Below the pieces are notes generated by a model. That model did not search any database. It saw only the letters and a program-made list of their open reading frames with translations, and was not told where the DNA came from. Positions 5,346 to 26,314 of a stretch of 64,000 nt of DNA are shown here, in pieces (within the stretch, counting starts at the first letter, position 1; each line of letters opens with the position of its first letter). The position numbers and the translations under genes are program-made. Source of the DNA: a virus. The DNA lies in IMG/VR virus record IMGVR_UViG_3300009537_000002, positions 39,636 through 103,635 of that record; one strand, 5' to 3'.

Positions 5346-8300
5346 TTACCTCGCAAATAGAGTATCATAGAAGTCACCCTGAGTACGACCCACCCAAGCA
5401 TTTGGCTGATACTTATCGTAAACATCACTGAGCATGAGACCAATACCCTCATCAGCTTCCTTGGCCCATTTAACAATCTCATCACCAATGCTCTGAACAA
5501 ATGTACCTTCCGTCTTCTTAATTGGCAATCCTGCCACCATGGCATTGCCACCTTTTACTAGCGGGCTATATCGGAACGGATGAGCCAGCTGGCTACGAGT
5601 GATCAACTTCTTGAAAATAAAGGTACCAATCATACCAAAGGCTGTGTTTGATGTACCTTGAGACAGAGCGTTCTCAGAGCTGTTGAAGAACATGTTGGCA
5701 ATCGGGGTAAATGCATAGTTTAATGCAACAGCTCCTGCTCCTGCTACGGATGCTACAGCAGCCAGTGAACTACCAGCGACTCCTACTGTTGTAGCCAAGT
5801 CTCCACTACCAACAGCACTTGTAGCTCCAGCAGCCACTGCACTAGGTGCACCGGTCATCAGGCTGGGCAGACTAGCGAGTCCCTGTTTTTGTAGAGCATA
5901 CTCGGCCATCAATCCCATAGCATCACTAGTGCTCAGAGTTGTGTGTTGGTTTACGTGGACTATCAAGTCTGGTGTGATCTCTGTAATGAAACCTGTGTCT
6001 TGGGAAAATCTATGGACCACTTGTTCTACTTCGATAGGACCAAACATGTCAGAGTACTCATCAAAAACATAGCAAATGTCATGTGGCTTGATACGTGGGT
6101 TTCCTACAATGACAATAGAACCACGATAGCTTTCCTTGAGAGTGTTGTATAGAAGACCAACAGCATAGCGCTTGGCCATCTCATATCCTACACAGTTAGG
6201 ATACTGAGCAAAGAGCTCACGGACATCTTCGTCCTTCACAGCAGCATCAGCACGGAGTGTGAATGTTTGGAGGTCATCGAAGACTAGCTGTGCTGTCTCG
6301 TCGCTAACATCGGCCGCATCATCACCATACTGTAGAGTCACTGTGTTGAACACGTTGCCAGATGACTCAATATTGTTCATCAAGATGTGCTGAGTGCTAG
6401 TCAGGACATGGTAGTTCCTGAATGGCTTGATGAAACCTTGGTCGAGAGCAAAGTTCTTAATCTTCTTTCTGATCCAGAACTTCCTGGCTTGCTCGTATGG
6501 GTCTAGATCTTTTTGAATATCGTCTGTGACCTGCGCAGCAGCAACTCCTGCAATTGCGCCAAGGCCTGGACCTGCAATTGCAACACCCACTGCCCCAGCT
6601 GCCAGTCCCACATTGGACGGTGCTGACTTGTTTGGATCGGTAGCCTTGTCGAGCTCGGTGCGACTATCTCTAAGCGTATCGACAGCGTCTTGTACGACCT
6701 TCTCAATACCCTCAATCTTATTGTCCTCGTTGAATGAAGGATCTCGAGCAAAGTAAAGCTGGTCGGGAACACCAAAGAACATTGTCATCCTTGGACCCCA
6801 CTTACCTTCGTAGGGTACGGGGTAGGCTATGTAGGATGGGTGGCGAAGGGTCATCTCCTGGAAGGTGTCCCACACCGTGCTGTGGTACAAAGTGTACTTG
6901 GCAGTGGAATCGAAGAGGCCCCAGATACCCCTGCCCTTTGGTGCAAAGATGTTGTCGTCCTGGGGACTTGGCACAAAGTTCCACTCGTTGCGCAAAGATC
7001 CATAAGCCGTGTTGTTGGCCTTACCGCCCTCCCAACGACCAAAATGTACAACCTCTGGGAACGAGAGCATCTCTTCAAGAATCTTACCAGTACGCCCCGT
7101 GCTGGAAAGGAACCCACCGAATGTTTTTACCTCACCATGCTGGTTCTGAACGAGCTCAACGGCGAAGCTCTGACAGACGATCTGTACCATGTCATCACTT
7201 TCACTGAACGCAATGTCAGTGATAACGCCATTCAGTACGGTCTCGAGTTCATCTGGATCGTTGTTGTATCCTAAACGCAATTGCATCTGCTGACCCGGTT
7301 TAAGCATCAATGAAGCAATCGGATTTTCATCGGCCGTGTTGGTAAGCAGAGGATCATTGTAGTCCTCAGTCACAATACGACCATCTGCTCCTCTAGGATC
7401 ATCTGGGTCAGCTAGCTCTCTGAATTTACGATTACTGAGCACACCACTAACATTGGTCATACTGATGACCGCTAGGTCAACACCAACCTTTCTACTTCTG
7501 ATTACCTTGATGTCCTTGATTGAACTATAGGAGAAGAAGTCATCAAAACCAAATCGCTTACGCTCACCGAGGTCAGATTCAATGAAGTAGAGTCGGAACG
7601 TAGGGTATGCACGAAGTAGAGAGTAACCCTGACCATTGTGCATGTCTTTCTCGAGCTGTTCGATGCTTTTGGTGAAGAGAGACTCGTTTGTTGGATTGAG
7701 TCCAACAACAGGACCCTGACACACCCTTGCTTCACCTTTGAGCTTTGCTTCTGGATCAACAAACAGACCACCCGGATCGATCATACCAAAGTGAAGGTGC
7801 GCACCTGTGCTAGCACCGGAACTTCCAACACGACCAATAATTTGACCCTGGGCCACGGACACCGTACCCAGGGCTGTCTTAGCATTAGCCAAAGCTGCAT
7901 ACTCACCTTCAAACAACATGTGAGAGTATGTGGTTTTCCAACCACCGTCATGTGCCAGTTCGATACTGTTGCCTGAGTTCTTACGAGGCTGTTCGGCCTT
8001 GTCGGGATCCCATGGCTCATCACGAATGAAGGTGATATTGCCATCAGCAGCAGCACGGACAGGCAGGCCCAATGAACCTCCACGAGCAGAGATGTCTATG
8101 CCTTTGTGGGGTGTTATTTTCCTTTCAAAGTCACCACTCTGTAGAGCTTCTGCAAAACCCTTTTTGTCAAAACCATCCTTGTTGTTGAAGAACCCAACAA
8201 TCTTTCCGGTATCTTTGTTCTTCAGCGCAATGGGGCTGATACGATCCAAATCGAACTTACTTGTCACAACCCTATTATTTGGATCAGTTGGCCAAGTCCA

Positions 8301-11252
8301 AACAGGTTCCTTGTTAGGGTCTCGTGGCTGTGCAGGTACATATGCTGGTTCACCCTTGAACTCAATCGAGTTTGTGCCAAAACGATGTCTGGCTTTGGCA
8401 TAATGCTTCTCATTTGGAGTCAAAGTGGCACCAGGTCGTGTCTTGAGAACCATGAGACCTGGTGAACGAGCTTCACCAAGCACACTGAATGCAGACAGGT
8501 CCATCTTGGGAAGGCTAATAGGCTCATCGTGGCGTGCTTCCGTCTGGATACTACATGCCAAGCCATTCTCTACGTCGATGAGATCATCATAGTGGAACAC
8601 GGCCTCGGACGCTTGAATCTGAGCCTTCACAGCCTCTTGTACTTCTTTGCGCTTTGCTTCGTCTTCATCACTCTCAAACACACTGGCCCAGAAACTTTTG
8701 TCGAATTGTGTGTTAGCAGACTCGAGTCTAATTTGATTAGCCAGGGCGGGACCCATCTTAGCCTCATATGACTGTTCCACCCATGACTTCTCGGCACCAG
8801 CGCGCTGAGTTGCATCTTCTTGCGAAGCCTTGATAGCTTCGATTGCTTTCTGTTGCACCTTGAACGGAATGAGGCTATTCACGTCATCAGTGAGTTGATT
8901 GTACATATAGAAGTCTGGTTGCAATAGAATGCTGAGCCCTTTCTGCCTGGCACCAAAAACACCACGCTTAGCCGCCGTGAGTAATTCTTCAGTGGCCATC
9001 CGCATAGCACTCTCGTCTGACGTGCTGAGGATCTGAACAACCTGTCGTAGAGGAAAGTCTGGATAGCAATCACCACTACTGGCCATGATGTTCTCACTAA
9101 GCATCTCTCTCACAAGCTTGAACTGCGGAAGGTGGATGTGGTCAGTAAACGTAATCTTATCCAAGAAGGCCACAGAGAAGTGCAGCCAGTCCTGAAGAAA
9201 TTCGTTGATGAAGTTGGCAACACGATTTACCTGGAGCTCCTCCACTGTGTCCACCTGGCTGGTTTGGATAGCGGCAAGAGTAGCATTCTGCACCTCGGTA
9301 TCTCCGCGTTGGATCGCCCGGGCAGCAGCAACCGATGCTTGACCCATCTCTCGAGAGTTTTTAATGTTTCGAGCTGCATCGCTGCGTGCTTCTTCAAGAG
9401 TACTTGGATCAAAGTGCACGCTGGCTCTCAATACTTGAGGAAGAAGAAATCTAATAGCCGGGAACAGATCTTCCTGAAGTCGCTGAATACCCGGAGCATC
9501 ATCGTTATCTAGAGAGAAGAATTCGCTACTAGGAGGTACGAGACTGTCAAATGCATCAAACAACTCTAGATAGAGGTTGTTGAATTCCTCGGCATATTCT
9601 TCACACAGAGTTCTAAATGCCTGGTTCCTGACAGGGTCGTTTGACGTCTTACCTTGTGGAGCATACTTGTAGAGACCTACTGTATTTGCGATAGTTTTAA
9701 GCGACTCTGCGCTTCGACCGAACTGTCTCTCAAAGGTAAGATTCTTCAACAAGATCTCAGAGACCATGTTTCGAATATCTTGTCTAGTCTGCATACGCTG
9801 TCCGGGCTGAATGCTCTCCTTTGTATTTGGCTCAATAGGATTGTCGATCAGTTCAAGACTAGCAGTATAGGTACCAGGCTGGCCTGGTACCGTACCAGTT
9901 ATCAAAGCATTGGGAATGAAGTGGTGTAACCCACACATGTTGACCAAGCCATTGAACAGGCGAATGTTTCTTTGACCCTGTGGGATGACCTTGAATTTGT
10001 GTGCCTGGTCTTCCACGGTGTTGTAGAAGCTAGTTAGAGCAGACAAAGAATCTTCGGATGTTGTGACAATAGACAGGGTTACTACGCCGTCAACACTGCC
10101 GATGTGCTGGAAGGTAGGATATGGATGACCAATGAGAGGAAGTTGTGCCAGCACATTCTCAAAGCTGATGGTCAGACCAGTAACGATTAATCCACTGGAT
10201 GGACCATTGAGTGCCAGATAACGAGATCGCTCGAGAAGCATTGTGCTTTCTGGCTCAGCCTGACCGACCTCTCTTCGTGGGGCTTGAGGCGTATCATTAA
10301 ATGTAATAGCCTCCCCCTTGTTATTGAACACTGGATACCACACAGCGCGGTCAAGTAGAGAGAACCTGTTGTCTGCACCAGGTGCCAAGGTATCATCCAA
10401 AATATCGTTGACCTTCTGAACAGTAAGTTTCTCGGGACCCATAGAAGTAATGTGTCCAAACGTTTCTTCTGCAAGAAGTAATCCGCGCTCACGACCACGC
10501 GCTGCCACCAAAGACTTGATTACCTGTGCGTTAGCGCTGGTTCTTTGATCTGACTTCTTGGACACACTGAGCGCAATTTCTTTTTGAAGTTGCTGCAGTG
10601 CCTCAAAGTCTCTCTCCAGTTCACGATACTGATCTACTGTAAGAGAAGCGAACTGCTGAAACCTCATGCTGATGGCTTTGTCATCGAGCTTCTTGATCTT
10701 CTTGTAATCGTTTCGCTGTTGCTCAGCCCTGTACATAGTCTTCCAAGGCAGAGACTCAGCTGGGTTTGGAGTAGAGATAGCAGAGAAGAAATCCTTCTTG
10801 TAGCTCCAGTCCTTCAGAAACGCGTGGTAGTTGAACCACTGGAAAAAGAAGGTAACATCAACAGTATTAGTTGAGTCGTTCTCTTTAGAGATGTGGAGCT
10901 GTTGCAACGCCAACACCATCTGAGGTTCGGGTGAGCCACCCAACACACTGTTGCGAACGAACTGATTCTCTACGTAGCAGAATGGAGTGACACGAAACTG
11001 AGATACTAGATTGCGGAGCTGTTCTAGTCCGTTGTCGAGCTTGTTGTGACCGAATGCGCCTCGCGTAGTAGTCGTAAACTTCGCCGACACCATAATACGA
11101 ATGGTTGAGAAGCCCGACTTGGACTTGATGGACGACCTAGTACGCAGGGTGTTCCACATGTGATTGACGGACTTCTTGTCAATCTGGATTTGTTCTGGTG
11201 GAATGTTGAGTACGATGTCGTTGATTTGGAAAAATCCATTATCTCCAGGCAT
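5346..11252 (-). CDS. Baseplate hub protein with embedded M23 (LytM) endopeptidase, 1968 aa
   Basis: A giant baseplate or tail-tip protein. The N-terminus (1-150) looks like phage baseplate hub proteins (NDIVLNIPPEQIQIDKKSVN). Residues ~1035-1175 are an M23 metallopeptidase: HKGID with H1049 and D1053, a YSHM segment, and GASTGAHLHFG with H1152 and H1154. All zinc and catalytic signature residues are present, so it should cut peptidoglycan cross-links during DNA entry. The C-terminal third has a gpD/gp27-like hub region (DLAVISMTNVSG, LKPGQQMQLRLGYN) and two Gly/Ala-rich hydrophobic stretches. It follows the giant RNA-polymerase-like gene and precedes the spike. Confidence 0.85.
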   Translation of the reverse strand: MPGDNGFFQINDIVLNIPPEQIQIDKKSVNHMWNTLRTRSSIKSKSGFSTIRIMVSAKFTTTTRGAFGHNKLDNGLEQLRNLVSQFRVTPFCYVENQFVRNSVLGGSPEPQMVLALQQLHISKENDSTNTVDVTFFFQWFNYHAFLKDWSYKKDFFSAISTPNPAESLPWKTMYRAEQQRNDYKKIKKLDDKAISMRFQQFASLTVDQYRELERDFEALQQLQKEIALSVSKKSDQRTSANAQVIKSLVAARGRERGLLLAEETFGHITSMGPEKLTVQKVNDILDDTLAPGADNRFSLLDRAVWYPVFNNKGEAITFNDTPQAPRREVGQAEPESTMLLERSRYLALNGPSSGLIVTGLTISFENVLAQLPLIGHPYPTFQHIGSVDGVVTLSIVTTSEDSLSALTSFYNTVEDQAHKFKVIPQGQRNIRLFNGLVNMCGLHHFIPNALITGTVPGQPGTYTASLELIDNPIEPNTKESIQPGQRMQTRQDIRNMVSEILLKNLTFERQFGRSAESLKTIANTVGLYKYAPQGKTSNDPVRNQAFRTLCEEYAEEFNNLYLELFDAFDSLVPPSSEFFSLDNDDAPGIQRLQEDLFPAIRFLLPQVLRASVHFDPSTLEEARSDAARNIKNSREMGQASVAAARAIQRGDTEVQNATLAAIQTSQVDTVEELQVNRVANFINEFLQDWLHFSVAFLDKITFTDHIHLPQFKLVREMLSENIMASSGDCYPDFPLRQVVQILSTSDESAMRMATEELLTAAKRGVFGARQKGLSILLQPDFYMYNQLTDDVNSLIPFKVQQKAIEAIKASQEDATQRAGAEKSWVEQSYEAKMGPALANQIRLESANTQFDKSFWASVFESDEDEAKRKEVQEAVKAQIQASEAVFHYDDLIDVENGLACSIQTEARHDEPISLPKMDLSAFSVLGEARSPGLMVLKTRPGATLTPNEKHYAKARHRFGTNSIEFKGEPAYVPAQPRDPNKEPVWTWPTDPNNRVVTSKFDLDRISPIALKNKDTGKIVGFFNNKDGFDKKGFAEALQSGDFERKITPHKGIDISARGGSLGLPVRAAADGNITFIRDEPWDPDKAEQPRKNSGNSIELAHDGGWKTTYSHMLFEGEYAALANAKTALGTVSVAQGQIIGRVGSSGASTGAHLHFGMIDPGGLFVDPEAKLKGEARVCQGPVVGLNPTNESLFTKSIEQLEKDMHNGQGYSLLRAYPTFRLYFIESDLGERKRFGFDDFFSYSSIKDIKVIRSRKVGVDLAVISMTNVSGVLSNRKFRELADPDDPRGADGRIVTEDYNDPLLTNTADENPIASLMLKPGQQMQLRLGYNNDPDELETVLNGVITDIAFSESDDMVQIVCQSFAVELVQNQHGEVKTFGGFLSSTGRTGKILEEMLSFPEVVHFGRWEGGKANNTAYGSLRNEWNFVPSPQDDNIFAPKGRGIWGLFDSTAKYTLYHSTVWDTFQEMTLRHPSYIAYPVPYEGKWGPRMTMFFGVPDQLYFARDPSFNEDNKIEGIEKVVQDAVDTLRDSRTELDKATDPNKSAPSNVGLAAGAVGVAIAGPGLGAIAGVAAAQVTDDIQKDLDPYEQARKFWIRKKIKNFALDQGFIKPFRNYHVLTSTQHILMNNIESSGNVFNTVTLQYGDDAADVSDETAQLVFDDLQTFTLRADAAVKDEDVRELFAQYPNCVGYEMAKRYAVGLLYNTLKESYRGSIVIVGNPRIKPHDICYVFDEYSDMFGPIEVEQVVHRFSQDTGFITEITPDLIVHVNQHTTLSTSDAMGLMAEYALQKQGLASLPSLMTGAPSAVAAGATSAVGSGDLATTVGVAGSSLAAVASVAGAGAVALNYAFTPIANMFFNSSENALSQGTSNTAFGMIGTFIFKKLITRSQLAHPFRYSPLVKGGNAMVAGLPIKKTEGTFVQSIGDEIVKWAKEADEGIGLMLSDVYDKYQPNAWVGRTQGDFYDTLFAR

Positions 11253-11267
11253 TTACGGTTCGACCCC

Positions 11268-14200
11268 TTACATGAGCTTACTTGCGATCTCGTGTGGCGA
11301 CAAGCGTGATCTGTTGTCTCTCAAGTTTACACTAGTATTTCTACCCATTCCAGCAAATCCAGATGCCAGGGCGGTGCCGTCTACACCTGCCGGTGCTCTT
11401 GCTGCGACTCGAGCTCCACCTGATGGTGGACTCATTGAGAGTCTAACGTTCTGGTTTCTCATAACAAGAGGAGTAGTTGGTGAACCGACATCCTTTGTAC
11501 CTGGGTGTACATCTTCTGGCCTCATCCTATTGACGGCCTTACGTCGATTCATGTTTAGTCTAGCATCTGGGATCTTACCACGACCAGACCCTACTGTCTT
11601 TGGGGGGTCAGACAAGATGGCACCCAGCGCCAGTGTACCAGCAAACCCCAGACCGATAGCCTTATGGTGACGCAGTAGACCTGCACCCAAAGCGCCCATC
11701 TTGTTAGTAGCAGTTGAATATGCAGTGGCCACCTTCTTCATCATACCAGGAGCTTCTTGCATACCCATGAAGGCTGTTCTTGCAGACAGCTCTGCAATTT
11801 CTATCTGCTTAGCACGAGCACCACGACCAGCAAGTAGCTCTGCAGTACGAGTGAATCCTGTGCGGTCGGCTTCATTGAGTGAACGCATCATCTCTCGAGT
11901 CGCAGAGTGCACGTTGATACCTTGAATTTGCTGAGCCATTTTAGTACCAGTAGCACTAGAAATAGCCTTGGCACCTTCTGCATCTAGATGAACGGTGCCC
12001 TGCAACATAGCCTTGGCTACTGTATCGTCTTTGACGATGGTTGCAATATTGCCTTCAAGTGTCTTGGCATCTCTGCCCTGCATAGCATCTGTGATGCTCA
12101 TCATGAGACCTTGGAGTCCACCTTCAGCAGCTTCCAAAGCCGACATATGCTTAGCAGAGATAGGAGCTTGTTCGAGCCACTCCAACAGGAAACGAGCATC
12201 ACTGGCAGCTGCACCCTGGCCAAACTTGGTGAGCGATCTCTTGGCTGCTGTCATTTCAAGTGACAGAGGAGCGATCCACTTCTGTCCGACTGACAACTTT
12301 TCCACCTCAGCCATCATCTGCTTGAGTGGAATGGTTTCAGCTCCAGTAGCAGCTTTACCAGCCTTGAAGAGCTGCATCCTTACCTGATGCTGCGTGTATC
12401 TGCGAGCGTACTCACTATCCTGTAGCATACTTGCTTTGCGAAGAGCTTCTTCGTTACGAGGACCCAACAAGAAAGTAGAATAGGCATCAGCGTCCTTGTC
12501 ACCTGCCAAGCCAACTAATGGACCAAGTGTCAATGTCTTCTCTTCGAAAGCTCCACCTACCTCAGTGGCTACACGGACGTTCTTGGTTATTTCGGGCAAG
12601 ACTATGAGATTGGATCGGCCTTCGACCATGCGCATACGAACTGGCTGCATAGAGAATTCACCAAGCAGCGGGTGGCGTCCTAGCATACCAGCGATCTCTC
12701 CACCTTTTTCAAACCTGGTCCTCATCGCCTCGAGTGCTTCAATGTCTCCCTTATAGAGACCTGTCTCAACCATTTCATTCCACATGCCAAGGAAATTCTC
12801 CCTGGTGATACCAACAACATTAGCTTCACGGATGGCAGTGGCTGCACCACCCACTCGCTGTGCAGAGACACCGCGAAGAAAACGAGAGCCTAGAACCTTA
12901 CCACGTGCAACAGCACCAATGCCTTTGCCAGCAGGCACAAATTCTCTACGTAGTATGTCTCTTTGGAACCCTAACTGGCGGGTGAGTTCTTCTTGAGAGA
13001 TCAATCCTTCCTCTGCTTGGCCCACCTTGGCAGCGATGTCACCATAGATTTCAGACAACCGACCTCGTGAGGTGACACCTGCATGTGTTTCATAGGGACG
13101 TAACTGAGTCATAATGTCCATTCCTGGAACATAGATTTCCTGACCAGCTCCTCGGATGACACCACCACCGCGTTCTAGAAACTTCTGGAAGTTTTCGCCC
13201 TGTCTAAAGATAGCCGCACCAGCAGGAGCAGCAGTACCTGACATAGTAGCAAGAGTCTTCTGTAGCTCCTGGTGCGCAATGAGAGTTTCAGGAGAGGTAG
13301 CAGCCAGACGCTGCATGAGTTCTTCACTGACGTCTCCACCTGCTGTACCCAAAGCACCACCCTTAAGAATGTCGAACACACGAGGTTCAACAGAGCCAAG
13401 CCCACCGACATCCAACATTGGACCGCCATAAGCAAACTCTGGCAGACCCATCGCAGTGCCACGTTGAAGTGCCTCTTCAAAAGTACCAAGCGCCTTACCA
13501 CGCAATCCAGCACGAGCCAACATTGCAGACACAACACCACGTCCACCTTTTTCAGCTGTACCACCCATAACATATGGAACAGCACCAAATGCTTCACCAA
13601 ACTCACGCTCTGTGACGTCCATCATGCCAACAGCAAATTGCATTGCTCTTTCAGTAAACCTTCTGTGACTGAATGCTCCACCTTTGAATGCTTGAGCAGC
13701 AAACGCTTCACCTGGTGCTGCCATGAATCGTGCTTGAGCTCGAGTGAACGGAGCTCCGCGGCGCTCAAGAATCCCTTGAAGTGAGTCAACCATCTGTCTA
13801 CGATGGAGAGCTCGATTTTTTCTGAGTTCATCCATGCTGATAATGATGTCTACATTACGATCATGAATACCAAGTTGTCTGAGTGCACCACCAAAAGCCT
13901 GTTCTTCTCTAAAGAGAGCTAGGGCTTTAGCACCACCAAACAACTTGCCGCCATGAGCAAACTGGTGACGGCGAAGAATTTCTACAGAGACCTCTTCACC
14001 AGCAGCACGACGAACACCAGTGATAGCGGCACCCTCAGGTAAAGTGAATGGCTTGCCTTCAGGAGTGAGGCCGAGTACTTCTCCTCCTCTGATACCTCCA
14101 CCAGCAATGTCTTCCCGAGCTCGAATAAGCTTCTGAGTCACAGATTCTTCGAAGATCATCTTGTCGCCTGTGCGAGCTCGAAACAAGGTTTCACCTTCGC

Positions 14201-15659
14201 CCATGGCCTGTTGTTGCATAAAGCTTTGTTCACCAATCATTAGCCTTGGATCTACATAAGCAGCCTTGAGTTTTGGACGGACAGCATTGGAGTAGGCCAA
14301 GGCCTCACCTTCAGCTTGGACGGCACGATAGTATCCACTACCTTTCTGACCAAGAGCCTTCATGCTCTCTTCTGCGATTTGGAATTCACGAAAGATCTGT
14401 TCTGGACGACGTGAATAGTCTACGGGACCAAGGGCATAGCGTTCCCATTCTGCCGTTGACAACATGCCTTCGGCTAAACCTTTCGGGCCTACACCACCAC
14501 GAAGACCCAACTCTCTACCAGCGGCAGATCCCATAGCAACACGGATCTCATCGTCGGTCATTGCGCGGAAACCTGGACGATACTCGGCTCCACCTCTGCG
14601 AACACCCACAGGTGCGACCATCTCAACGGCCATCCCACGAAGTGCTTCACGTTGAGCCTGAGCAGCGGTGCGACTTTCGAGTATGTTGGCAGGAGTAGTT
14701 TCCAGTTCTCCAAAGATCCTTCCTCTCAGCTGCTTAATCGCACGCTCTACATCGCCTTGTGTTTTGAGTCGTCCACCAATTTCAGGAGCGATACCACGCT
14801 CAAGCTCCTGGAGAAACATTTCAGTACGACCGATACGCTGGAGTTTTCCTCCTTCGCCCATAACTACAAAGTCTGGAGCGATACGACGTGTCTGTAGTGC
14901 CATGCCTTCAGCTATCATCCCACCTGATACCTGAGGCAATTGCACACGAACATCGCCAACACGAGTGCCTTCAAAGATCACGTTCCAGGCTCCCAACCCC
15001 TCACCTGCAAGTTCAGGCCGTGTGATACCGAACATCTGTCGGCCAGTTCCACCCATAGCTGCTTGAACACGTTCGATGCCAGACATGAAAGGAGCAGGGA
15101 TAGGAGTAGCCATTGCGATAGTTGCCTTTGGAGACAAACCTTGAATCTGGTTCACTCCCACAAAGTTGGGTAGACCAAATTGTGTGGCTTGGGCAGTGAG
15201 TGTTCCAACGTTTCTTTCGAAGCGCTGCCAAATACGACCTGCAGCTACAGAGGTTTGACCAGCCATTGTGGCCGAGATTGCCGAGCGAGCTTCCGCTGGG
15301 GTCATGTTCATGATGCCTTCGGTAAGACCCAGCATCTGCTTTCTTGTGAACGGATCGACAGACTGAGTTGCCCACGCCCAGGCTCTACGTTGAACATCGG
15401 TCCTGCTGTACTGCATGAATCGATTGACGTCTTCGATGCTAGGGATAGGTGGGCCGCGGCGTGATGCCTGCCTGCCAAGAGTACGCATGGCCTGGTCAAT
15501 GCCAGCCTCGCGTGGTTGTTTCAGTGATCCTTCAACGTGGATACCTTTCAATGCAGCAGCAATACCCACAGTGAGAGGAGTAGCAGCAATAGCAGTTCTG
15601 AGTAGACTACCACCGCTACGATCCGGAAACTGAGGATCGCTATCTCTACGTTCAGCCAT
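11268..15659 (-). CDS. Candidate single-chain two-barrel virion RNA polymerase, 1463 aa
   Basis: Two segments read like the catalytic double-psi beta barrels of multisubunit RNA polymerase. Residues ~555-632 match the beta-subunit barrel: RRHQFAHGGKLFGGAK with K572 and K578 at the two conserved lysines, then NVDIIISMDELR and an RRQMVDSLQG segment matching the PVDIVLNP...GQILETHLG pattern. Residues ~990-1080 match the beta-prime barrel: GMLGRHPLLG for NRAPTLH, MVEG for LIEG, then GPLVGLAGDKDADAY, with D1054, D1056 and D1058 at the NADFDGD metal aspartates. A helical region follows. Beta precedes beta-prime, as in YonO and crAss-like gp66. A hydrophobic segment lies near 1333-1350. Its place before the baseplate hub suggests packaging in the virion. 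A divergent tape measure is the alternative. Confidence 0.7.
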   Translation of the reverse strand: MAERRDSDPQFPDRSGGSLLRTAIAATPLTVGIAAALKGIHVEGSLKQPREAGIDQAMRTLGRQASRRGPPIPSIEDVNRFMQYSRTDVQRRAWAWATQSVDPFTRKQMLGLTEGIMNMTPAEARSAISATMAGQTSVAAGRIWQRFERNVGTLTAQATQFGLPNFVGVNQIQGLSPKATIAMATPIPAPFMSGIERVQAAMGGTGRQMFGITRPELAGEGLGAWNVIFEGTRVGDVRVQLPQVSGGMIAEGMALQTRRIAPDFVVMGEGGKLQRIGRTEMFLQELERGIAPEIGGRLKTQGDVERAIKQLRGRIFGELETTPANILESRTAAQAQREALRGMAVEMVAPVGVRRGGAEYRPGFRAMTDDEIRVAMGSAAGRELGLRGGVGPKGLAEGMLSTAEWERYALGPVDYSRRPEQIFREFQIAEESMKALGQKGSGYYRAVQAEGEALAYSNAVRPKLKAAYVDPRLMIGEQSFMQQQAMGEGETLFRARTGDKMIFEESVTQKLIRAREDIAGGGIRGGEVLGLTPEGKPFTLPEGAAITGVRRAAGEEVSVEILRRHQFAHGGKLFGGAKALALFREEQAFGGALRQLGIHDRNVDIIISMDELRKNRALHRRQMVDSLQGILERRGAPFTRAQARFMAAPGEAFAAQAFKGGAFSHRRFTERAMQFAVGMMDVTEREFGEAFGAVPYVMGGTAEKGGRGVVSAMLARAGLRGKALGTFEEALQRGTAMGLPEFAYGGPMLDVGGLGSVEPRVFDILKGGALGTAGGDVSEELMQRLAATSPETLIAHQELQKTLATMSGTAAPAGAAIFRQGENFQKFLERGGGVIRGAGQEIYVPGMDIMTQLRPYETHAGVTSRGRLSEIYGDIAAKVGQAEEGLISQEELTRQLGFQRDILRREFVPAGKGIGAVARGKVLGSRFLRGVSAQRVGGAATAIREANVVGITRENFLGMWNEMVETGLYKGDIEALEAMRTRFEKGGEIAGMLGRHPLLGEFSMQPVRMRMVEGRSNLIVLPEITKNVRVATEVGGAFEEKTLTLGPLVGLAGDKDADAYSTFLLGPRNEEALRKASMLQDSEYARRYTQHQVRMQLFKAGKAATGAETIPLKQMMAEVEKLSVGQKWIAPLSLEMTAAKRSLTKFGQGAAASDARFLLEWLEQAPISAKHMSALEAAEGGLQGLMMSITDAMQGRDAKTLEGNIATIVKDDTVAKAMLQGTVHLDAEGAKAISSATGTKMAQQIQGINVHSATREMMRSLNEADRTGFTRTAELLAGRGARAKQIEIAELSARTAFMGMQEAPGMMKKVATAYSTATNKMGALGAGLLRHHKAIGLGFAGTLALGAILSDPPKTVGSGRGKIPDARLNMNRRKAVNRMRPEDVHPGTKDVGSPTTPLVMRNQNVRLSMSPPSGGARVAARAPAGVDGTALASGFAGMGRNTSVNLRDNRSRLSPHEIASKLM

Positions 15660-18600
15660 TATACCAATCCGTCTAGAGCAGCATCATAGTCGACGTCTTG
15701 CTCAATGTCGATATCAACACCAGGGAAGTTCCTGTGGAACACACTGGCCCGAGCTCCTTGTGGAATTAGGAGTTCATCTATTCTATCCTGCATTTCTCCT
15801 GGACTCAATTGCTCTGGGTTCATCAGAGGAGCAATAGCGGACTCGTTGATGAATGGTTTGTTCACCAACGCTTGTGCACGCGAAGGCCACAGGTCAAAGT
15901 CATGCATGTCTTCACCCATACTCTGCACCACCTTAAGCTTCACATCTTCCAGGTCAACAGACGGATGCCATCCTACCCAGTCATCACCAGGCAACGGTAC
16001 TTCAGAGAGCAGCTTAGTTCTACGGTACCAGTCTCCATAGTTCTCACCAGGTAGCTTGGTCGCTACATACTCAGCAAACAACTCTTCGTTGTTTGGGAAA
16101 CCTTCTGATCGAGCTTCATCTCTGATTTGTTCCAGAATGATATCTGCCTCAGCGATCTGGTCTTCTGACAATAGTCCAGCCTTCTCTGCTTTCTCTACAT
16201 CCTGTTTGAACTGTAGCTTCCAGCGAGCAATGTAGAGAGCCTTCTCATTGTCAGGAACGAGCTCGAGGATCTTTGATCTCTCTTCCACAGTATCAGCTGC
16301 AGCAAATGAATTGAAGTAGTCTCGCTCACGTCTGGGGAGAGAACGGAAGATGTGAGAGAAGTTGTATGTGAATGGATTGAGGCCAAACAACGTCTCGTTC
16401 TTCTTAGCTTCAAACTCTTTCACGGCAGCAGTGTCACCGCTCATCCTAGCCAGGTTCGAAAGTCTTGCTTGCTTTGTGTATTCTAGGACATCAAAGTACT
16501 GCTCGAGACCACGTCTTTCCTTGATGTGTTCGGGAATGGAATCGAAGCCCATCGACTCACCTACCTTGGTAAGGAACGGACGGATGAAGTCACGCATTGG
16601 ATGTGACCAGAACGCGTTCTCCGTACCATAGATCTGACTGTTCTCATAGTCTTCAATTGCTGTTCGTTGGTGAATGAGTTTGGCTGCGGGTGATACTGGC
16701 GTGAGGACATCCAAAGATGTCTCAGCGTTGTGAGCTAACATTTCCCAGTAGCCACCAAAGAACTTGGCAAAGACACCCTGCTCTGGTTTTTCTGACGCCT
16801 TGATCCTATTGAGTTCTGCTAGTACTCCTTTTGATTCATCCTTGTAGTAAGCTCCTTCATCGTCTATGTCCCCAGTAGGACTCAGGTATTCGTATTCTGC
16901 GAACCTTCTCTTGATCTTCCTTTCCTTGAGTTGAGCTTCGGTCATCTTGTAGATGCCTTCCTCATACTCGCTCCAAGTCTCTAATTTCCTTTGGCTTCTG
17001 ATGCTCTGCAGCATGGACTTGTACTTGTCACTGTACGGAGCCACATCAGCGAGGATCTTGTACCTGTGGATATCAGGGTAGTCTTCAGGTTTGAAGTTCT
17101 GGAGCTCTGGGAAGCGGGCTGCATAACCGGCCCCTGGGAGCCGTAGCTCGCCCTCCTGGACCTTTGTATAGGGATCTCCATGAAGGAAGTCAGGAGACTT
17201 CTCTCCGGGCCCTGGGAGCCACTCAGGCATCATGTTTCTAATTGGGTTGTACAGAGGGATCTGACGCCTTCTGTGAGGGTACAAACGCCTCAAAGCCTCT
17301 GTGGTTCCCAGTCCACCACCGATTTCAAGGTCCCAATAGTCTCTCTCAGTGCCAAAAGCACGTCGAGCGGACTCCAAACGCATGGTTTGGTCGAAAAAGT
17401 CAGCAGATCCAGTCAGTGCTTCCTTGATAGAAGAGATGGTGAAACCTGGAAGACCGATCATTTCAGTCATTCTGTAGGCTTGTTCACCTGCTGTTCCTGT
17501 CAGATTGAAGGGGGTTTCAGCACGTCCAGGTGGAAGCTCTCCCAGTTCAGCTGCACGGCGCTCGCCAAAGCCAGGAGCCATGGCCAATTGTTCGCCACCA
17601 GGCCCCATCCACTCCTCAGTGTGCATCAAGACAGGTGGCTTGATGAGCCTACCAATCGTGTTGGCGAGAAGAGGTCCGATAAATGGAACATCTTCAAATG
17701 GGAGACTGGTGATAGGGTATGGTCGTTCTTCGTAGAACTCTCTCTCGAGATCATACGTGAACTCTTGTCTCCACCACTGTTGTAATGGAGTCGGCGGCTT
17801 GTCTCCCCAAATGGAGACTTCTTTTGACCTCTGTTGCATACGGGCATACCAGTGAGGTCTGTAGTACATGATTCGGTTGCCTTCCCATGGTGTGCGACCA
17901 AACTCCCACCATCTACCCTTTCTGATTGGTACTTCCTGTTGACCAGAGTAGATGCGTTCGAGCTCGTCTGGCCTAGTGGAAGGAACCAGTGCACCAGGTA
18001 GGAAAGGAGCAATAAGTGCTAACCCGAGGCCTGCACCAGCGAGACCAGCCAGCTTGGTGGGTCCCATCTTGCCAACGAATGGATAAGCCTTATCTCCAAA
18101 GAGCCGACCAAAACGGCCCATCAGTCCCTCGGTGCCAAACTTAGTGATTTGCTCAGATGCCAGTGTACGTGCAGCAGCAGGACCAATGCCCTTCGCATAT
18201 TGCAATTGAGCCATCTTGCCTACTTGTGCTGCGTAGGAGATGCCAGCCGCGCCGAAGGCACCCATAATTGGGAATGCTAGAAGTCGAGATAGGTCGGTGC
18301 TACCAGGGGCTAGTCTTTCTTGTGCTTCACGGTATGCGTGAAGACCAGTAACTTCGGCCACGCTAGAGGCTAACTGATTAGCACCAGTCCAAATCGAAGC
18401 AAGTCCCGCAGTGAGTCCTTGGTTTAAAACAGTTTCATCAAAGACACTGGCCTCACGGAACATGTAGTCGAGTGATTGATAACCAAGAGCAAGTCCACCA
18501 GCTACAGCACCATACTTCCAAGCCAAACGGCCCAGCATTTGAGTGCCCGAACCATATGGGACAGCCAGTTGAATCCTTCTGCCGGTCAGGTTGTACAGCA

Positions 18601-19459
18601 GATCTTGAGCTCCACCGAACACCGTTCTAAACGGCTGCATTTCGAATGGTGCTTCAAGCAGTCGATTGAAACGAGAAACAAACTCAGTGCCAATGGCGCC
18701 AAGCTGTCTACCTGCATAACCCCACGGTGTTTGCGCTCCAATGATTTGACGATGGAACTTGCCTGTTGCTAGACCAAGTTCTTCTCCAAACATACGAGCG
18801 TCGCCAGCTGCCATACCGAAACGAGCTCCAGTGCCAAAGCCCATTGAACGTGCATAGCCTGAGCCAAGATGTTTACCAGCAATAGAACCTAAGTATGACT
18901 CGCTCTCTCTCAGGACAGGATCAGAAATAGGACTGATCATCGCACCTGCATAGCGCAGAGCAACGTCACCGGTCTGACCAAAGTAGAGACTGCCACCACG
19001 GAATGTTACACCTTCTTTGAGTACTCGAGCATGAGTACCTGGTGCATCACCTGTTAGCTGAGCAAGGTATCTTGCATATCCACGACCTGCATCAGAACGA
19101 AGAAATGTTCCGGCAACAGAGAAGCCTTGTCGTGCCTGAGTGGTGAACTGAGAGAAGAAAGTAGAAGCCTGGAAGGTACGAAACACACCACCCGGTGAGT
19201 ACTCTTCGATAGCACGTAGACCACCAACATAGTAATCCCACATCCTCCTACCACCACCGACTGGGATGAAACCGCCTGCCAGTATTCCACCAGCAACAGC
19301 TCCAGCAGTCAGCATGCCAGATGTTGGATGTGCCTCCTCATAGAAACCACTCGGTGGGCGGTTGGTCCACACATCTGGTTGCTGACGCGGATCACCCATG
19401 GATGGCCCATAATAGGCACGTGTATCCGTGAGGCTAAATCTGTTGGGGTACCTTGGCAC
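15659..19459 (-). CDS. Giant tail-module protein with hydrophobic segments, tape-measure slot, 1266 aa
   Basis: Directly follows two tail-assembly genes, where a tape measure is expected, and overlaps the RNA-polymerase-like gene by one base. Hydrophobic Gly/Ala segments lie near residues 49-68, 315-330, 394-413 and 469-491. The middle (500-560) is unusually Trp/Tyr/Arg-rich (RKGRWWEFGRTPWEG, YYRPHWYARM), and the C-terminal half is charged and helical. It does not look like a long coiled-coil tape measure. It could be a divergent tape measure or a membrane-active protein ejected with the genome. No enzyme motif was seen. Confidence 0.65.
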   Translation of the reverse strand: MPRYPNRFSLTDTRAYYGPSMGDPRQQPDVWTNRPPSGFYEEAHPTSGMLTAGAVAGGILAGGFIPVGGGRRMWDYYVGGLRAIEEYSPGGVFRTFQASTFFSQFTTQARQGFSVAGTFLRSDAGRGYARYLAQLTGDAPGTHARVLKEGVTFRGGSLYFGQTGDVALRYAGAMISPISDPVLRESESYLGSIAGKHLGSGYARSMGFGTGARFGMAAGDARMFGEELGLATGKFHRQIIGAQTPWGYAGRQLGAIGTEFVSRFNRLLEAPFEMQPFRTVFGGAQDLLYNLTGRRIQLAVPYGSGTQMLGRLAWKYGAVAGGLALGYQSLDYMFREASVFDETVLNQGLTAGLASIWTGANQLASSVAEVTGLHAYREAQERLAPGSTDLSRLLAFPIMGAFGAAGISYAAQVGKMAQLQYAKGIGPAAARTLASEQITKFGTEGLMGRFGRLFGDKAYPFVGKMGPTKLAGLAGAGLGLALIAPFLPGALVPSTRPDELERIYSGQQEVPIRKGRWWEFGRTPWEGNRIMYYRPHWYARMQQRSKEVSIWGDKPPTPLQQWWRQEFTYDLEREFYEERPYPITSLPFEDVPFIGPLLANTIGRLIKPPVLMHTEEWMGPGGEQLAMAPGFGERRAAELGELPPGRAETPFNLTGTAGEQAYRMTEMIGLPGFTISSIKEALTGSADFFDQTMRLESARRAFGTERDYWDLEIGGGLGTTEALRRLYPHRRRQIPLYNPIRNMMPEWLPGPGEKSPDFLHGDPYTKVQEGELRLPGAGYAARFPELQNFKPEDYPDIHRYKILADVAPYSDKYKSMLQSIRSQRKLETWSEYEEGIYKMTEAQLKERKIKRRFAEYEYLSPTGDIDDEGAYYKDESKGVLAELNRIKASEKPEQGVFAKFFGGYWEMLAHNAETSLDVLTPVSPAAKLIHQRTAIEDYENSQIYGTENAFWSHPMRDFIRPFLTKVGESMGFDSIPEHIKERRGLEQYFDVLEYTKQARLSNLARMSGDTAAVKEFEAKKNETLFGLNPFTYNFSHIFRSLPRRERDYFNSFAAADTVEERSKILELVPDNEKALYIARWKLQFKQDVEKAEKAGLLSEDQIAEADIILEQIRDEARSEGFPNNEELFAEYVATKLPGENYGDWYRRTKLLSEVPLPGDDWVGWHPSVDLEDVKLKVVQSMGEDMHDFDLWPSRAQALVNKPFINESAIAPLMNPEQLSPGEMQDRIDELLIPQGARASVFHRNFPGVDIDIEQDVDYDAALDGLV

Positions 19460-24415: not shown

Positions 24416-26314
24416 TTATACCGCGCTCAGGGCTACGACAATCGTCAACTGACGCAACTCGAACACAGGTACTAGTTTCAACTCGAGAGTAGCCTGACCC
24501 AAAACTCTCTGTTGAGCTGTAGCCGTCAAGGTGAAAGAGTACCTTTGGAGTACTAGTTGCTTGACCAAAGCTTTCAGCTGGGAATCAATCGCAGTTTCTA
24601 GAGCAGAAAGCGTGGCTCCACTCATTCCTTCGCCGAGGAATGGTTCGGACACGTTCCTGATAGAGTCTACAGCAGCTTTCACCTGACGCATGGTGGACAG
24701 GCGCTGGTAGTCAGAGTCTGGACGAGCACTCGTTGGAGCGTCGGAGACTACGATACCACGTGTCTTCGCGTGGAAGGTCACGTATCGCTGTCCTGTGAGC
24801 AGGTCTAGCTTTCTCTTACCAACCCTGAATGGCAGACGAACATTCTTCAACAGCTTGTTCGTTGGTGCGCTCTGCGGAGGCAGAGCAGAGTAGAATCCAC
24901 CATATGTTGGTGCACCTGTAGCCGTGTAAGACGTAGCCTGACTTGGGTTGGAGAGAATCGGGAAGGTTGCAACGGTGCTGATGTACTTGCCGATGTCGAC
25001 AAGATGATCGTTGTCATCCTTAATCTGGAGGTCATCCAGGAATCCCGTCTCGGTAGCGATGAAACCACCGTTGAACAGACCATCGATACCATTGATAGTA
25101 AGTCCTGGCAAACCACCACCAGTGAGACGACCAGACATGAACTTGTTACCAAGTAGTCCTGTACCGTTACCACCAGCAGCGATTACTACATTACCAGCAG
25201 TGTCAGTCGTTGTGGTTGGCAGTGCGCCGACCCACAGAGCAACATCCTTCAAGCTGAACGAGTTCGGCGGAAGGACACCTACTACACCTGTCATCTCGTC
25301 GGTATCACGAGACTGCGTGTAGCAGAAGTTGGCTAGCTGGTATGCGTGGTTGACTTCATGGAAGTCTGCAGCGGTGAGTGTAACACCATCTGCGTCTGTG
25401 GTTGCCGAAGCAGAACCGACAGAAGGAAAAATCTGAGCCGATGGCACGCCAGGTGCTGTCGGATCAGCTGGGAACCACCACCAGAAGTAGTTGATTCCCT
25501 CAAACTCCTGAACGAAGACCTTACCGAGCACATCATCATCAGCAGATGCACCTGGGTAGTCAGACAGAGACGTAAGACTCAATGCAGCAATCTCTGCGGC
25601 AGTGAGGTCCTGAACGTTCAGAGTGTCTAGATAGATGTTCATTGGAACAACAACATCAGCTTCCTCGTCTTCGAGTAGCTGATACGCGTTGTAGAGATTC
25701 TCCCAGAGCTCCATCCTTGACAGGCCAAGGCCATCAGTACCAGCTGTGAATGCAGCTGGGCCATCTCCACCGCCATCAGCCGCAGCCAATGTGATAGGAG
25801 TAACCAAAGTACCAATGTCTGTTGTTGGACCGCCTGTAGCAGTACCAGAAACAGCAACCTCGCCAAGATCAACCTTAGCCAATGGGTAGGCTGGGTTGTT
25901 GTCAAAGACTAGCTCTCCGTCTGATGCTCGATAGACTCGAAGTCTCAGCGTGCTAGCATCAAAGAACAAGGTGTAGTCAGTGCCTGCTGAGTCGTCCTTA
26001 CGAACGGTCTCAATTTCGAAGCCCGGACTAGAACCGATGTCGATTAGCTTTGCAGCTGTAGCACCAATACGGAAAAGGCGGATGTTCAAAGCACCGCCGA
26101 GAGAGGTCTCGTATAGTCCACGCGTCAGGGTACCTGCACCCTTGCCAAAAATCCTAGCGGCATCGGAAACACGGTCGACTGTAAATACAATCTCCGAATC
26201 ACCTTGTGCAGCCGTACCTAGGACCAGGACAATGGGATTGTCATTGATGACAGACTGAACAAGATTACCATCTTGCTCGTCCTTAAAGATACCTGGCAGG
26301 TTATCAAAAGGCAT
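24416..26314 (-). CDS. Contractile tail sheath protein
   Basis: 632 residues. The N-terminal region has the sheath pattern PIVLVLGTAAQGDSE, then FTVDRVSDAARIFGKGAGTL and GALNIRLFRIG. The C-terminal domain (~500-632) carries YVTFHAKTRGIVVSDAPT and the helical MRQVKAAVDSIRNVSEPFLG segment typical of sheath C-termini. It builds the contractile outer cylinder, so the phage is a myovirus. A good purine-rich site precedes the ATG. The tube gene follows after 15 bases. Confidence 0.9.
   Translation of the reverse strand: MPFDNLPGIFKDEQDGNLVQSVINDNPIVLVLGTAAQGDSEIVFTVDRVSDAARIFGKGAGTLTRGLYETSLGGALNIRLFRIGATAAKLIDIGSSPGFEIETVRKDDSAGTDYTLFFDASTLRLRVYRASDGELVFDNNPAYPLAKVDLGEVAVSGTATGGPTTDIGTLVTPITLAAADGGGDGPAAFTAGTDGLGLSRMELWENLYNAYQLLEDEEADVVVPMNIYLDTLNVQDLTAAEIAALSLTSLSDYPGASADDDVLGKVFVQEFEGINYFWWWFPADPTAPGVPSAQIFPSVGSASATTDADGVTLTAADFHEVNHAYQLANFCYTQSRDTDEMTGVVGVLPPNSFSLKDVALWVGALPTTTTDTAGNVVIAAGGNGTGLLGNKFMSGRLTGGGLPGLTINGIDGLFNGGFIATETGFLDDLQIKDDNDHLVDIGKYISTVATFPILSNPSQATSYTATGAPTYGGFYSALPPQSAPTNKLLKNVRLPFRVGKRKLDLLTGQRYVTFHAKTRGIVVSDAPTSARPDSDYQRLSTMRQVKAAVDSIRNVSEPFLGEGMSGATLSALETAIDSQLKALVKQLVLQRYSFTLTATAQQRVLGQATLELKLVPVFELRQLTIVVALSAV

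Follow-up and report, generated by a model that had tools for sequence, protein, structure and literature searches.

Known phage RNA polymerases and the locus under study

In the hot-spring Thermus phage P23-45, gp96 was shown in 2024 to be a virion RNA polymerase (RNAP) that is fused to the tape measure and transcribes the pre-early genes (PMC10770324). In phage 0305phi8-36, the tape measure was assigned to orf146, at the place corresponding to the locus described here (PMC2147016). The present study concerns a gene for a protein of 1463 aa (11268..15659, minus strand) in a 64,000-nucleotide window, the whole stretch of DNA that was analysed. The window forms the right-hand 64 kb of a viral contig of 103.6 kb (IMG/VR record IMGVR_UViG_3300009537_000002), which is metagenomic and an incomplete fragment. 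The encoded protein is probably a single-chain two-barrel RNAP in the tape-measure slot of a 0305phi8-36/ME3-like phage, built into the virion and transcribing early genes.

The predicted protein and P23-45 gp96 have in common a one-chain two-barrel RNAP at the tape-measure position and an R-x-P followed by DxDxD in the second barrel, and the Pfam RNAP models miss both of them. P23-45 is an unrelated siphovirus, whereas the phage described here is contractile-tailed. Of the 5002-aa tape of P23-45, the RNAP occupies the N-terminal fifth, while here it makes up about three quarters of 1463 aa; the motif is DFDGD in gp96 and DKDAD in the window protein, and sequence similarity between the two is undetectable. 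Unlike gp96, in which the RNAP is joined to a long tape with peptidase and membrane segments, the window protein has only about 190 N-terminal and about 170 C-terminal residues beyond its core, and the peptidase sits in the hub gene.

The original prediction had held that divergence and location in a contractile-tail tape-measure slot would make the protein a new lineage. As regards the slot this is overstated, because a polymerase there is already known from P23-45 gp96 and in itself is not new (PMC10770324). What is new here is the contractile-tail lineage, a DKDAD without glycine, and the large share of the protein taken up by polymerase. A new RNAP lineage is possible, and no sequence tool ties the family to any one RNAP clade. 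The family of nine members described below may already figure in the supplementary survey of viral two-barrel RNAPs in PMC10770324.

Single chains with two barrels, as predicted here, are also found in 0305phi8-36 gp99, YonO and the QDE-1 type, but gp99 is encoded by a separate right-arm gene outside the tail slot (PMC2147016). With the cellular beta/beta' and the AR9/phiKZ multisubunit RNAPs the window protein has in common the RxP...Q...DxDxD core of the beta' barrel and the helices that follow it, and the fold matches. In contrast to these enzymes, it is fused in one chain, with no other subunit identified and no significant sequence match.

Predicted catalytic motifs and their conservation

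The gene is an ATG-start open reading frame (ORF), and its assignment as an RNAP with a core at about residues 190-1290 is based on a nine-member family and on fold searches. All features of the window given here and below are on the minus strand. The motifs quoted in the original prediction (K572/K578, NVDIIIS, RRQMVDSLQG, GRHPLLG, DKDAD at residues 1054-1058, and EEALRKASML) were all found in the translation. The beta-subunit-like segment, predicted to resemble the double-psi beta-barrel DPBB-B, covers residues 540-640 (13740..14042) and was recognised by the conservation of K572 and K578 and by the strand order in the models. The two predicted catalytic lysines lie in GGKLFGGAKALAL, at K572...K578 (KLFGGAK, 13926..13946), and K-x5-K is present in nine of nine homologues. 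By eye, VDIIIS...RRQMVDSL answers to VDIVLN...IGQILETHL of E. coli RpoB.

The beta'-like barrel, resembling DPBB-A, covers residues 925-1085 (12405..12887) and is supported by the models, Foldseek matches to RNAP beta' chains and profile alignments. It contains RHPLLGEFSMQ (residues 995-1005, 12645..12677), which by eye answers to NRAPTLHRLGIQ of E. coli RpoC, and the predicted metal-binding motif DKDAD (residues 1054-1058, 12486..12500). This motif, in GPLVGLAGDKDAD, is the single DxDxD of the 1463-aa ORF. By the analyst's count, DxDxD also occurs in about one quarter of the other large ORFs of the same loci, so the string alone means little and the evidence lies in its conservation at the aligned place.

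Eight relatives (22-51% identity) were obtained from IMG/VR through sheath, profile and hub-gene searches, giving nine family members with the window protein. No recognisable relative of the window protein was found in phage records by tblastn or in a scan of bacterial genome contigs. In a seven-sequence alignment K572, K578, D1054, D1056, D1058, R995, P997 and Q1005 are invariant. Among the nine homologues, three of 116 columns of the lysine-barrel region are invariant, two of them being K572 and K578, and 19 of 251 columns of the aspartate-barrel region are invariant, including R995, P997 and all three aspartates, which had been described as kept; S1003 is likewise invariant. A rough estimate for coincidence of the invariant catalytic columns is ~1e-7, on an assumption of column independence that does not hold. 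The motif variants in the family are DKDAD, DKDKD, DYDFD and DFDFD. In two relatives fetched by the baseplate-hub gene alone, L031 and L033, the slot protein has RHP...DKDKD and RHP...DKDAD, respectively, in the predicted place; this out-of-sample prediction might have failed but succeeded.

Where DxDGD has its glycine, every one of the nine members has A, F or K; ME3 gp36 has Q there, and KLEB27-3 retains the glycine.

The helices past the aspartate barrel (residues 1083-1175, 12135..12413) follow DPBB-A directly in the model, are dense in invariant residues, and carry Y..HQ.R.QL.K and LLEWLEQ.PI..KH. They are the candidate bridge helix and trigger region. The C-terminal tail (11271..11702) is conserved in the family alignment and tape-measure-like, with a hydrophobic segment, a Pro-rich linker and a conserved SVNLRDNRS end. 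The hydrophobic segment near the C-terminus is above the cutoff in L019, L023, L025, L033 and ME3 gp36, and below it in the window protein.

Structure models and fold searches

Two AlphaFold models were obtained, the first for residues 190-1290 from seven sequences (pLDDT 53) and the second for residues 480-1200 from nine sequences (pLDDT 67, pTM 0.55). When the models were compared with the PDB by Foldseek, 50 of 50 among the matches listed for each model were RNAP beta' chains, with best E values of 1e-4 and 7.6e-5. The DPBB-A region was the best-predicted part in both models, and the polymerase homology of the aspartate barrel is well supported. In the lysine region, the model gave a strand, the lysine loop, a strand, a short VDI strand and a helix, which is the order of the beta barrel. 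Together with the invariant lysines and the resemblance to RpoB, this strand order moderately supports the predicted polymerase homology of the lysine-bearing barrel. The proposed arrangement, a beta-like part followed by a beta'-like part in a single chain, is supported by five predicted catalytic residues that are invariant in nine homologues and by the fold matches of two models.

In the viral structure library, the top match was an ME3 protein, which is probably gp36 of the tape-measure slot, and most of the named matches below it were viral RNAP subunits.

Sequence searches and positional orthologues

Since the Pfam model PF00623 also misses the P23-45 RNAPs, which are proven by experiment, its failure to match the window protein does not count against an RNAP. 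When the barrel profile of the family was compared with 153 targets by hhalign, KLEB27-3 gp034 came out on top (E 0.007), followed by E. coli RpoC, and both alignments were in the DxDxD register. An hhalign comparison of the full core with P23-45 gp96 was in the wrong register. No match to PF05183, the RdRP-like family of QDE-1 and 0305phi8-36 gp99, was found in the window's genome or in the relatives, and for a palm RNAP of T7/N4 type, no Pfam or PHROGs family was found for the window protein at E up to 10. Chaperonin-60, the best PDB profile match (E 0.026), does not agree with the fold matches and was judged to be a chance match.

KLEB27-3 gp034 (DYDGD) and ME3 gp36 (DHDQD) are positional orthologues of the window protein. 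Gp034 can be aligned to it by profile, but the full-length identity of either protein to it is undetectable and neither is recorded as an RNAP. Gp034 carries the near-canonical beta' motif NRYPTINQSTIQ...ADYDGD (NRYPT...DYDGD), and the profile alignment places RHPLLGEFSMQ opposite NRYPTINQSTIQ. In a scan of the 217 kb KLEB27-3 genome, gp034 was the sole match to PF00623 (Rpb1_2; E 7e-5, and E 0.015 by hmmscan), and its top PDB sequence match was the RNAP beta' of phage AR9, weak (E 0.43) and in register. The depositors of KLEB27-3 labelled gp034 as "structural protein".

Gp034 is 2434 aa long (L009 25004-32305), with the RNAP segment near the C-terminus and an N-terminus that is exonuclease-like by eye. 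Its residues 68-262 align weakly to the exonuclease region of Moorella phage MTATph1, where CDS0027 (L008 20513-24439) has an RNase_T-type exonuclease domain (PF00929, E 5e-5). This alignment suggests a nuclease fused to the polymerase in gp034. In MTATph1, the tape-measure slot region (L008 20513-27869) is broken by an IS21-like transposase/ATPase pair (CDS0028-0029), and the C-terminal end persists in CDS0031; since no DxDxD was found in the interrupted slot, the polymerase segment seems to be lost.

Genomic setting

The window gene lies between two virion-protein genes with orthologues in ME3, KLEB27-3 and MTATph1. The upstream neighbour (15659..19459) is an orthologue of the ME3 virion structural protein gp35 (tblastn 6e-59 to ME3) and also matches KLEB27-3 gp031/gp033 and MTATph1 CDS0026. 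On the other side, the baseplate hub with an M23 peptidase (5346..11252) is an orthologue of ME3 gp37 and 0305phi8-36 gp147. Because the flanking genes are orthologous on both sides, the gene at 11268..15659 is the positional orthologue of ME3 gp36 and KLEB27-3 gp034. The location in a contractile-tail tape-measure slot, between orthologues of ME3 gp35 and gp37, agrees with what had been proposed. The tail sheath of the contractile tail (24416..26314) was identified by phrog_16991 (E 1e-78) and by tblastn to the sheaths of ME3, MTATph1 and KLEB27-3. Sheath and hub match Acinetobacter phage ME3, Moorella phage MTATph1 and Bacillus phage KLEB27-3, which are of the 0305phi8-36 kind. In KLEB27-3, the homologue of the upstream neighbour (gp031-gp033, L009 17827-24980) seems to be divided between gp031 and gp033, with gp032 lying in between, perhaps an intron or insertion.

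Scans of the 103.6 kb fragment with PF05183, PF04983 and PF00623 for a second RNAP were empty. A shared early-promoter motif was not found among the intergenic gaps of the same fragment.

Alternative explanations

Several observations weigh against a virion-borne, active polymerase. The glycine of DxDGD is replaced throughout the nine-member family, and no significant RNAP match was obtained for the family in Pfam, PHROGs or the PDB with the protein, full family profiles or short barrel profiles. Both models, built on a shallow alignment, are of low confidence, and the PDB matches have TM-scores of about 0.15 and large rmsd, indicating local matches that cover the aspartate barrel with its helices. 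The lysine barrel had no fold match in the PDB fold search and no RNAP match in hmmsearch with the lysine-barrel profile, and the slot of MTATph1 is without DxDxD.

The best-surviving alternative is that the protein derives from an RNAP, has lost catalysis and is now a structural or tape-measure part only. Its position in the slot, the absence of the glycine across the family and the loss of the polymerase segment in MTATph1 would suit such a history, but it is considered unlikely, since the small set of invariant positions includes the catalytic lysines and aspartates while their surroundings drift, a pattern in the alignments that points to kept catalysis.

An active RNAP could also be encoded among the tail genes without being packaged and work late as a non-virion enzyme. 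This is improbable for a gene that stands in the tape-measure slot between two virion-protein genes, has a tail-like C-terminus and has an orthologue in KLEB27-3 annotated as structural. That no other RNAP family was matched in the fragment would favour a late enzyme, but the fragment is incomplete and another RNAP may be missing from it.

Least probable is an ordinary tape-measure protein resembling an RNAP by chance, for which the slot, the missing significant sequence matches, the frequency of DxDxD in large phage ORFs and the weak models could be cited, because the PDB fold matches listed are exclusively RNAP beta', the catalytic residues are invariant, the KLEB27-3 orthologue has a near-canonical beta' motif, and the motif was predicted and then found in two relatives.

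Proposed mechanism and significance

For the virion-built polymerase favoured here, packaging and early transcription are suggested by the gene position and by the precedent of P23-45 gp96. Residues of about 540-640 would form the barrel supplying K572 and K578, and residues of about 925-1085 the barrel holding Mg2+ on D1054, D1056 and D1058. The helices after the aspartate barrel would act as bridge and trigger elements, and both barrels are predicted to assemble into one active site. The tail-like C-terminus probably builds the polymerase into the virion, so that it would enter the cell along with the DNA and, like P23-45 gp96, transcribe early genes off the incoming genome.

More tentatively, a deep contractile-tailed lineage comprising 0305phi8-36, ME3, KLEB27-3 and environmental relatives might carry its early RNAP as the tape-slot protein, with the glycine replaced (DxD[A/F/K]D) and with an acquisition independent of P23-45.

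If the favoured reading is true, tail-carried RNAPs extend from one Thermus siphophage group to an old and widespread contractile-tailed group, including the cultured jumbo phages ME3 and KLEB27-3, in which the protein bears a hypothetical or structural annotation. Such phages would then have a means of starting transcription without the host enzyme, and there would be an RNAP active site without the usual glycine. The reading also implies a testable claim on 0305phi8-36 gp146, which has long been called a tape measure.

Other genes

At positions 180453-180674 of KLEB27-3, a sub-threshold match to sigma-70 region 2 (E 1e-4) was observed, a possible phage sigma factor. Close to the left end of the contig that holds the window, a fused DnaG-type primase and DnaB-type helicase of 872 aa is encoded (L001 4147-6765).

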